A stretch of 64,000 bases of DNA, from the NCBI GenBank assembly GCA_017559845.1, contig JAFYQQ010000014.1, positions 62,001 to 126,000 of the forward strand, in the 5' to 3' direction. Within the stretch, counting starts at the first letter, position 1, and every line of letters starts with the position of its first letter. The DNA comes from Bacteroidaceae bacterium (lineage in GTDB: Bacteria; Bacteroidota; Bacteroidia; Bacteroidales; Bacteroidaceae). The translations under genes were made by a program, and so were the position numbers. The notes under the pieces were generated by a model, which worked only from the letters and a program-made list of their open reading frames with translations, made no database searches and was not told the DNA's origin. Shown piece by piece: positions 5,141 to 57,811 of the stretch.

Positions 5141-5175
5141 CTCATAACTCATAGCTCACCGCTCACCGCTCACCG
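5141..5175. repeat. Heptamer array CTCAYNG (TGAGCGG on the minus strand), five copies
   Basis: Five consecutive 7-base units (CTCATAA, CTCATAG, then three CTCACCG) end 3 bases from the stop codon of the minus-strand beta-helix gene. Read on the minus strand, each unit contains TGA. Because 7 is not a multiple of 3, the array places stops in all three frames. Related arrays occur at 46336-46370 and 46961-47001. Confidence 0.8.
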
Positions 5176-5178
5176 CCT

Positions 5179-15747: not shown

Positions 15748-15772
15748 CCAATCATTATACATTTTCTTTTAC

Positions 15773-15892
15773 AAACTGAAATATCATGAAAACCCAGTTA
15801 AAAAGCCGGAAAAGCCCAGTTGCGAAAATATTATTTCTCAACTGGAAAAAAATATTTTCGCAACTAGGAAATAATTTTTTTCCAGTTGGGCG
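15773..15892. repeat. 22-bp phased array with alternating CAGTTG / CAACTG cores
   Basis: The word CAGTTG or its reverse complement CAACTG, or a one-base variant, begins at 15795, 15817, 15839, 15861 and 15883, exactly 22 bases apart; a degenerate AAACTG sits one step earlier at 15773. The spacers are A/T runs that differ between units, and the word changes strand. This is not an ordinary tandem duplication. The same word and phase recur at 46476-46570. The rest of the 328-base gap (15682-16009) holds the Sel1 promoter and otherwise nothing I recognise. Confidence 0.85.
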
Positions 15893-16009
15893 GTTTAAAA
15901 CCTCATTTTATTGGGTGTTTTTTGCCCTTTTGGCCTTAAAAGCATAAGGAGTAAGCGAGTAAAAATGTTTTACATTATACCCGCGGCAACAGAACTAAAC
16001 GAGAGATGC

Positions 16010-16917: not shown

Positions 16918-17036
16918 TTTACATCACTATGTAAATGGATTTACACAACTATGTAAATGCGTTTACATAACTATGTAAAACCATTTACATTTAAGGGTAA
17001 ATACGTTTACATTTCAATAAAACCGAAATGTAAACG
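16918..17036. repeat. 22-bp phased array of TTTACAT...ATGTAAA units
   Basis: Four units of exactly 22 bases start at 16918, 16940, 16962 and 16984. A fifth, longer unit runs 17006-17036. Each contains TTTACA and TGTAAA or TAAA arranged as a near-palindrome. The unit length equals that of the CAGTTG and CTTAAG arrays elsewhere in the window, but the word is different. Confidence 0.85.
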
Positions 17037-30731: not shown

Positions 30732-30781
30732 GGTTATTTCTTTGTGTTTTCCGTTGCTGTTCTGCAACAATGTTGAAACAT

Positions 30782-30975
30782 AGTGCTTAAATTGTTGTAG
30801 CACAGTGCTATAAAAGTTTTTTCTCTGTGGTAAAAGTTTTGTTCCAGCTGATGAAACGTACATTCCAGCTGATGAAACGTACATTCCAACTGATGAAACA
30901 TACGTTCCAACCGATGAAACGTACGTTTCAGCCGTTGAAACAAACTTTTCACTGTTAACAAAAAACTTTTTCAGT
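30782..30975. repeat. Extended phased array (AGTGCT at 22 bp, then six 21-bp units)
   Basis: AGTGCT occurs at 30782 and 30804, 22 bases apart. AAAAGTTTT-type words follow at 30812 and 30832. Six units of exactly 21 bases then start at 30842, 30863, 30884, 30905, 30926 and 30947, the first three nearly identical (TTCCAGCTGATGAAACGTA), the later ones decaying. AAACTTTT at 30942 and 30963 keeps the phase. It lies downstream of the frdCAB terminator in the 829-base gap 30672-31500, which also holds the candidate RNA. Confidence 0.85.
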
Positions 30976-31050
30976 TAGCTCAAAAAACAAATTCAGTAGT
31001 GTCGGAAAACATTTTTAATACAATTGTTCTTCAATTCCGAAAATAATTCC

Positions 31051-45840: not shown

Positions 45841-45886
45841 GAGAGAACATAAAAAAACTTTACACAAAAAATAGCAAAAAGTAACA

Positions 45887-45958
45887 CTTAAGTGTTTCTG
45901 CAAAATCACTTAAGTGTTACTTCGGAAAGACTTAAGAAAAACTCAAGAAACACTTAAG
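45887..45958. repeat. 22-bp phased CTTAAG array
   Basis: The palindrome CTTAAG begins at 45887, 45909, 45931 and 45953, exactly 22 bases apart. A one-base variant (CTCAAG) sits at the half-step, 45942. Flanking bases often extend the palindrome to ACTTAAGT, but the spacers differ in sequence. This is the first repeat in the 1215-base gap 45781-46995. Confidence 0.88.
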
Positions 45959-46169
45959 TCTTTTTTTGCGTATTTTCTAGGGAAATTTTACAAGATTGTA
46001 TCCTCTTGATTATAAGAAGATTGAAAGTTTTCTTCATTTCTTCCCTTGCACCAAAATCTCCTTTTTTTGTTTTTTGACAAATCGAAGGTAATGGCACGCC
46101 GATGACCGAAGAATTTTGAGCAGTGAGTTTTTGGATTAGACAGAAGAACATAAGAACATGTTTTTCGTT

Positions 46170-46335: not shown

Positions 46336-46370
46336 CTCATTGCTCATTACTCAATGCTCATCGCTCACTG
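46336..46370. repeat. Heptamer array CTCATNG, five copies
   Basis: Five consecutive 7-base units (CTCATTG, CTCATTA, CTCAATG, CTCATCG, CTCACTG), the same family as at 5141 and 46961, here without an adjoining gene end. Confidence 0.75.
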
Positions 46371-46475
46371 TCAAACATTTTTACCTTTGCCCTTCCTGCA
46401 TACATAGGTACCAAAATGAACAAAAATCATTTAAAACAGTTCAAAAAGGCACATAAATGAATGGCTAAAATAGCC

Positions 46476-46569
46476 CAACTGGAAAAAAATAATTTCTCAG
46501 TTGAAAAAAAATATTTTTCCAGTTGGGAAGTTATTTTTTCGCAACTGGGCGTTTCCAACTTCCTAACTG
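46476..46569. repeat. Second 22-bp phased CAGTTG / CAACTG array
   Basis: CAACTG at 46476, CAGTTG at 46498 and 46520, CAACTG at 46542 and TAACTG at 46564 are each exactly 22 bases apart. Core word, phase and A/T-rich spacers match the array at 15773-15892, 30 kb away. The order of orientations differs. Confidence 0.88.
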
Positions 46570-46676
46570 GAATTCCCAAATTCCTCCCGTTTGTAAAAAG
46601 TTTTTTATCCAATGGAAGGAACAAGGCGTGGCGGGCGTTGTAGGCCGTGGGAGAGTGGTTGCCTTGGATCATAAAG

Positions 46677-46946: not shown

Positions 46947-46960
46947 ATTGGAGGATTCGA

Positions 46961-47001
46961 TCATCGCTCACCGCTCATCGCTCACAACTCATAGCTCAAA
47001 G
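46961..47001. repeat. Heptamer array containing the S46 peptidase stop codon
   Basis: Six units of 7 bases (TCATCG then CTCACCG, CTCATCG, CTCACAA, CTCATAG, CTCAAAG). On the minus strand the first unit supplies the TGA stop codon of the peptidase gene and every later unit gives another TGA in a rotating frame. Confidence 0.78.
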
Positions 47002-57565: not shown

Positions 57566-57811
57566 TCGGAAGTGTTCTCCCAAGTTGGGAGCGGCTTCCG
57601 ACACGTAAAAAATGCTCTCCCGGGTTGGGAAACGATTTCCTGAACTCAAAAAATGCTCTCCCGGGTTGGGAAACGATTTTCTGAACTCAAAAAATGCTTT
57701 CCCGGATTGGGAAACGATTTTCTGAACCTAAAAAATGCTATCCCGGGTTGGGAAACCATTTTCGGAACGTCGGAAATGCTCTCCCGAGTTGGGAGCGGAC
57801 TTCCGACGCGT
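57566..57811. repeat. Six-unit 41-bp tandem array
   Basis: Six units of exactly 41 bases start at 57566, 57607, 57648, 57689, 57730 and 57771. Each has CTCCC...TTGGGA at the same place; the first and last units instead form a wider palindrome with GTCGGAA and TTCCGAC. 41 is not a multiple of 3, so any frame through it rotates and no protein is encoded. It fills most of the 319-base gap 57506-57824 between convergent genes. Confidence 0.93.

Follow-up and report, generated by a model that had tools for sequence, protein, structure and literature searches.

Small mobile elements that carry internal tandem arrays have been described in P. gingivalis. In the accessible part of the published account, the BrickBuilt MITE is presented as dispersed and intergenic, with 19 copies and a tandem array placed between a leader and a tail; its 23-nt direct repeats follow one another without spacers and its terminal inverted repeats are IS5-like (PMC4596501). 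Unit numbers differ at orthologous loci, stem-loops are predicted, and the gene upstream of BrickBuilt_5 has its own terminator ahead of the element (PMC4596501). The same portion of the text attributes to MITEPgRS/MITE464 internal 41-nt tandem repeats and ends nearly identical to those of BrickBuilt around unrelated interiors, and it mentions 22-nt tandem direct repeats in strain W83, their locations not being given there (PMC4596501).

The literature that we searched, most subscription papers being outside its coverage, yielded BrickBuilt and no genus-wide 22-bp rule. Iterons of plasmid origins are binding sites set near a 22-bp pitch on one face of the helix; they are direct, stand beside the rep gene and are not dispersed. 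REP/BIME sequences are palindromic and intergenic and contain inverted words.

Here we analysed a stretch of 64,000 nucleotides from a Bacteroidaceae genome (the window), in which an initial annotation had singled out five short words at regular steps. These words form the internal array of a non-coding, dispersed intergenic element of about 212 bp, which belongs to a class of arrays with a 22-bp pitch.

A dispersed intergenic element

The element, a copy of our family A, occupies positions 15761-15972 on the + strand and runs from the left end ATTTTCTTTTACAAACTG through the word array to the right end GTAAAAATGTTTTA; its extent was taken from alignments of the dispersed copies, and the + orientation is that with the CTTTACA-type end at the left. 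Five CCARYTGG-like words (15794-15890) start at 15795 (CAGTTA), 15817 (CAGTTG), 15839 (CAACTG), 15861 (CAACTA) and 15883 (CAGTTG), and re-reading the window bore out the five positions and the exact 22-bp steps of the initial annotation. Three of the words are exactly CAGTTG or CAACTG, as it had them, and two are one letter off; their orientations, which it described as alternating, run + + - - +. It had also held that the spacers are not copies of one another. Positions 15815-15836 are in fact 91% complementary to 15847-15868, and 15839-15859 are 90% complementary to 15868-15888, so that the spacers of this copy are inverted copies of one another. Spacers copied together with words, a pattern named in that annotation as contrary to its reading, are thus what family A displays. 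The annotation did not suspect a dispersed repeat at this site, and its picture of conserved words, unrelated spacers and fixed pitch fits better at other arrays in the window, among them those at 16918-17034, 30842-30930 and 45886-45958.

The assembly that contains the window, G000, has 84 contigs totalling 3.06 Mb and is 93% complete; in it, positions 15773-15920 returned 45 matches, which collapsed to 26 places, and three further arrays surfaced in later scans (L088, L099 and L209). The copies can be aligned across about 220 bp; their ends are conserved, and the step from word to word is strictly 22 bp. A second copy, recognised by the dispersed-copy search and alignment, lies in the window at 46371-46607 on the - strand. 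With its 26 places, family A is short, non-coding, multi-copy and intergenic, as expected of a MITE. The genome of a sister species (G032) holds an orthologous copy of the 15761-15972 element with 96% identity. Among 61 genomes, each with at most 14 candidates scored, family A was found in G000, in G032 and, by one weak match of about 35 bp, in G013. A pattern scan of named genomes covered exact matches only, viral contigs contained no exact match to one family A pattern, and Rfam returned only chance microRNA matches below the cut-off.

Each family A word is an instance of CCA-RY-TGG, frequently with one letter altered. Read on the strand opposite to that of the window, the central pair in 80 words from 16 copies is AC in 63, GT in 13 and GC in 4. 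Because CAACTG and CAGTTG differ solely in this pair, the flip between them requires no DNA inversion. Words flip between orthologs too, for example from CCAGTTGG to CCAACTGG at L024/L047.

One spacing for many unrelated words

Three further families are represented in the window. The family B array (16918-17034) consists of TTTACAT N4 ATGTAAA N4 units at a 22-bp pitch, with TTTACA starting at 16918, 16940, 16962, 16984 and 17006; G000 has 10 matches at 7 places. The family C element (45851-46082, + strand) runs from the left end AAAAAAACTTTACACAAAA through four ACTTAAG(T) words, spaced by 22 bp at 45886, 45908, 45930 and 45952, and CTTTTTTT to the right end TTTTTTGACAAAT, and the family (ACTTAAGT) amounts to 33 matches at 18 places. 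Family E, of GGAACGTACGTTCC type, has a pitch of 21 bp; its element in the window (30774-30997, + strand) carries TTCCA at 30842, 30863, 30884 and 30905, and 21 matches correspond to 14 places. An array of 4.6 copies at a 41-bp pitch (57607-57794), with 7 matches at 5 places in the genome, recalls the 41-nt repeats of MITEPgRS. Simple 7-bp repeats of CTCATCG type occur at 5148-5176, 46336-46367 and 46957-46998, and also adjoin several family A copies.

When 6-mers repeated three times at one lag were scanned, the window gave lag 22 twice and lags 21 and 41 once each. The same scan returned lag 22 twelve times in a 400-kb sample of G000, where every other lag came up at most four times, and fourteen times in a 344-kb sample drawn from 18 congeners; it did not return lag 22 at all from 262 kb of sequence belonging to other families of the order. 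A scan based on matching density detected lag-22 arrays 23 times across 464 kb of G000, 19 times in the genus sample, once in the order sample and never in Markov shuffles. The comparison with shuffled sequence proposed in the initial annotation did not refute its reading, lag 22 being dominant in real DNA and absent from shuffles. Chains of family A-like words were also sought in 40 sequences simulated from the window with a first-order Markov model: with one edge mismatch allowed and one fixed lag of 15-60, the best chain was 2 in 36 and 3 in 4, and never 5.

Arrays were then clustered by unit sequence, with simple repeats removed beforehand since those of CTCATCG type explain part of the signal at lags 14, 21, 28, 35 and 42. 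At the thresholds used, on which the counts depend (window 66, at least 38 matches, unit identity 0.68), lag 22 comprised 8 unrelated unit sequences (21 arrays) in 464 kb of G000, other lags having at most 3. A 570-kb genus pool, which includes two G032 stretches, one of them with family C, gave 18 families at lag 22 (29 arrays), and next came lags 15 and 21 with 5 families apiece; none was present at lag 22 in the 262-kb pool of the order's other families. Dyad symmetry reached p < 0.05 in a shuffled-letter test for 4 of 8 lag-22 families in G000 and 10 of 18 in the genus, and several families have no symmetry at all. At a strict threshold, each of the 12 arrays with a lag of 21 or 22 had a coding overlap of 0.0, with genes called by a home-made codon model that was trained on G000 and applied to the congeners as well.

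One gene neighbourhood, that of pckA, illustrates the replacement of words at a common spacing. Downstream of pckA, over at most 800 bp where available and at lags 15-40 (window 50), arrays at lag 22 built on several different words are present in 8 of the 30 congeneric loci returned from 52 genomes with a match: family C is common to G000 and G032, and the remaining six carry words different from those of family C. Lags 23, 16, 32 and 37 were met once each. In the surroundings of kdtA, also at 30 loci, lag-22 arrays occur in G000 and G032 (family A, with family C as well in G032) and in three others. The 22-bp pitch of arrays of unrelated words points to a shared spacing rule.

Constraint on the arrays

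In pairwise comparisons, which are not independent and in which aligners put fewer gaps in periodic sequence, 16 A-I copies showed 2477 differences and no indel in the array, against 5981 differences and 216 indel events in the remainder of the element. For 13 family C copies the figures are 826 differences and no indel in the array, and 4461 differences and 103 indel events in the remainder. Word-to-word spacing in family A copies equals 22 in 95 of 99 intervals, and one family B copy has a 1-nt gap. Family E reverses the pattern: its array accounts for all 16 indel events counted, which trace by eye to a single copy that lacks exactly one 21-bp unit; one family C copy (L129), excluded from the 13-copy count, lacks exactly 22 nt. 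On the basis of these two copies, arrays would gain or lose whole units.

Differences per site are fewer in words than in spacers for family C (0.040 vs 0.195) and family B (0.094 vs 0.397), and in family E most word columns range from 0 to 0.18 vs 0.35-0.76 for the variable columns. Family A copies stand at 0.208 for words vs 0.218 for spacers, and ten orthologous loci of G000 and G032 have 20/375 differences in words, 18/518 in spacers and 140/2287 in flanks. A slower evolution of family A words, tested among copies and orthologs, was not seen; together with the absence of indels, these values support a fixed pitch in family A and not a special protection of its words.

From the absence of indels, and from the fixed loop lengths of family C reported below, we infer that selection may keep the pitch at the level of DNA. 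That these elements form a class of fixed-pitch arrays maintained in this way, with dyad sites on one helix face, is a tentative reading that we place just short of probable. Each word would be a dyad-symmetric site, which in family A takes the form CCA-RY-TGG with a central AC/GT step free to flip, giving the appearance of strand flipping. Successive sites would be two helical turns apart and hence on the same face, where several of them together could be engaged by a protein dimer or by a supercoiled tract prone to cruciform formation. Of the proposals made in the initial annotation, protein sites on one face agree with the fixed pitch, the free substitution and the lack of indels, but family A words are no better kept than spacers, among copies or orthologs, and no DNA-binding protein or transposase was linked to the elements; its cruciform or hairpin proposal is compatible with the folding data. 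Against selection at the DNA level also stand the weak dyad test of family A (p 0.054, a weak pass, for the clustered unit and 0.783 for the copy at 15761), the 21 bp that make two turns of B-DNA where most families have exactly 22, and the many different proteins that a sequence-specific reader would demand for unrelated words.

The best-surviving rival considers the arrays as neutral or selfish minisatellites in MITE-like elements, as in BrickBuilt, with no host function. The 22-bp unit would be a fixed 22-nt copying product, and homogenisation between copies would keep the register. Dispersed non-coding copies and whole-unit indels agree with this reading, as do the family A words that evolve no slower between orthologs and flip there, and the restriction of family A to two of the 61 genomes, with a weak match in a third. 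Neutral drift should nevertheless leave indels of 1-2 nt, and none other than whole units was counted at 13-21% divergence within the arrays of families C and A; moreover, the words of families B, C and E are strongly conserved relative to spacers at fixed spacing. We hold minisatellites to be a possible but somewhat unlikely explanation, and a constraint on one face of the DNA is favoured, not proven, over both minisatellites and RNA hairpins.

More speculative, and unlikely in our judgement, is a genus-wide ruler of 22 bp that is blind to sequence. Some factor would make, copy or recognise the arrays through the symmetry of their self-complementary words and the spacing of these, not through sequence, the words themselves being replaced between species and loci and the pitch retained.

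Gene context and RNA folding

The arrays could also act at the RNA level, as terminators or paired hairpins that are located at the 3' ends of genes and read in the transcript. Gene context is partly in line with this: among the sampled G000 arrays, the 20 for which a neighbour was called on either side comprise 13 tandem, 7 convergent and no divergent cases, vs 25 divergent among 108 gaps over 150 bp, a small background. The gene upstream is directed towards the array in 12/16 family C cases (12/13 in a short-flank count), none of the 12 with both neighbours being divergent, and in 13/23 family A cases, comprising 6/6 for A-II but 7/17 for A-I, whose orientation is not set by the upstream gene. 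Divergent contexts do exist elsewhere, with four in congener arrays, two in G032 and 2/12 in family E.

Folding gives a similarly divided picture. The array of the element at 15761 folds with a z of -4.5 on the + strand, but with -4.0 on the - strand the two fold about equally, and alifold, used to look for RNA covariation, finds pairs on both strands for families A, B, C and E. Family C folds into two hairpins with a U-run after the second, and a hairpin followed by a T-run after the gene end is present in its sequence and not in that of A-I. On the gene strand of family C, G-U cells number 17 vs 1 for A-C, a count that depends on a structure which had itself been selected by folding energy from that strand. 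Loop length is constant across the 13 counted C copies though loop sequence varies, and in both G000 and G032 pckA already has its own GC-rich terminator ahead of the C element. Taken with these observations, a role in the transcript appears doubtful.

Element ends and possible mobility

Families A and C enclose unrelated arrays between similar ends, ATCTTTACA...TTTGACA, which are in direct orientation; the common pattern, in the same orientation in both, may also be written AAAAATCTTTACA...TTTGACA. The array consequently looks like an exchangeable cassette in a non-autonomous mobile element. By inspection, the flanks of family E are inverted. The copy at 15761-15972 is flanked by an exact 8-bp direct repeat, CATTATAC, at 15753-15760 and 15973-15980 on the + strand, a possible target-site duplication of which the G032 ortholog retains one side only. 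The other family A copies inspected by eye showed no consistent target-site duplication, the 8-bp case being that of this copy alone.

Genome-wide, the left-end pattern occurs at 11 sites (reversed control 0), ten of them at C copies and the eleventh 233 bp from one. End-motif searches for a parent IS in the 93%-complete assembly gave mostly C copies with no transposase between, and no autonomous partner was established at two more left-end sites and four right-end matches outside the listed C copies. At L083 there is a DDE transposase neighbourhood in which no second end matches, and at L239 a family C copy is cut by another repeat.

Several observations were made on neighbouring sequences. 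A different repeat with the inverted ends AGGGACGTTCTAAAAATT / AATTTTTAGAACATCCCT lies at about 190-520 of L239, where it appears to interrupt the C array at a TTAAG-like site, and at 1997-2191 of L035. IS200-like (Y1) transposase genes with their own REP-like hairpin repeats are located at 200-1801 of L018 and 1309-1957 of L035. In G032, about 2 kb with a large ORF (L041, 2977-4999) directly adjoins the family A copy and is absent from the window, by comparison with 15765; the breakpoint of this extra stretch is the end of the family A element. At 7020-7150 of L089, a stretch rich in hairpins lies between two direct AATCTTTACATA-like motifs and may represent another family with ends of A/C type.

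It is very improbable that the elements are REP/BIME-type sequences mobilised by the IS200-like (RAYT) transposases of the genome. One of three Y1_Tnp matches in G000 does have a family A copy at a distance of about 480 bp, but the RAYT genes at C23 and C60 carry their own, different flanking hairpin repeats, and family A words do not flank RAYT genes symmetrically. With no cognate RAYT flanked by the same repeat, such an origin is largely refuted. A CRISPR array is ruled out by 8-bp words and related 14-bp spacers, vs the near-identical repeats and unique spacers of about 30 nt of that system. A chance series of short words in A/T-rich DNA has a negligible likelihood, being refuted by the chain simulations, lag scans, shuffles and family counts.

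Relation to known systems

Tandem arrays in small mobile elements were already known, but the exact pitch that many unrelated words share in one genus suggests a common reader or maker. Were there one, the 22-, 23- and 41-nt repeats of P. gingivalis would turn from a curiosity into a testable rule for the intergenic DNA of Bacteroidales, and would open a route to a DNA-binding, nucleoid or transposition factor.

Iterons resemble these arrays in pitch, but they are direct rather than dyad words and are not dispersed. REP/BIME sequences resemble them as palindromic, intergenic, inverted words, but the RAYTs found here are flanked by other repeats. The 22-nt repeats of P. gingivalis W83, of which the accessible text makes a mention, are alike in unit length.

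On the partial account available for MITEPgRS, the likeness lies in common ends around unrelated interiors, as in families A and C, and in the 41-bp array of the window; its pitch of 41 differs, and the likeness is one of description rather than of compared sequence. BrickBuilt proper, with its 23-nt direct repeat unit, is ruled out by the pitch of 22 and the diverged spacers. As far as its description can be followed, the arrays reported here further differ from it by the pitch of 22 (21 in family E), by many dyad words with diverging spacers, by A and C ends that are alike in direct orientation, and by the many unrelated families at one pitch. Both are nonetheless dispersed intergenic elements with an internal array whose number of whole units differs, and the terminator of pckA ahead of the C element parallels that of BrickBuilt_5. 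BrickBuilt and MITEPgRS of P. gingivalis are the nearest described elements.
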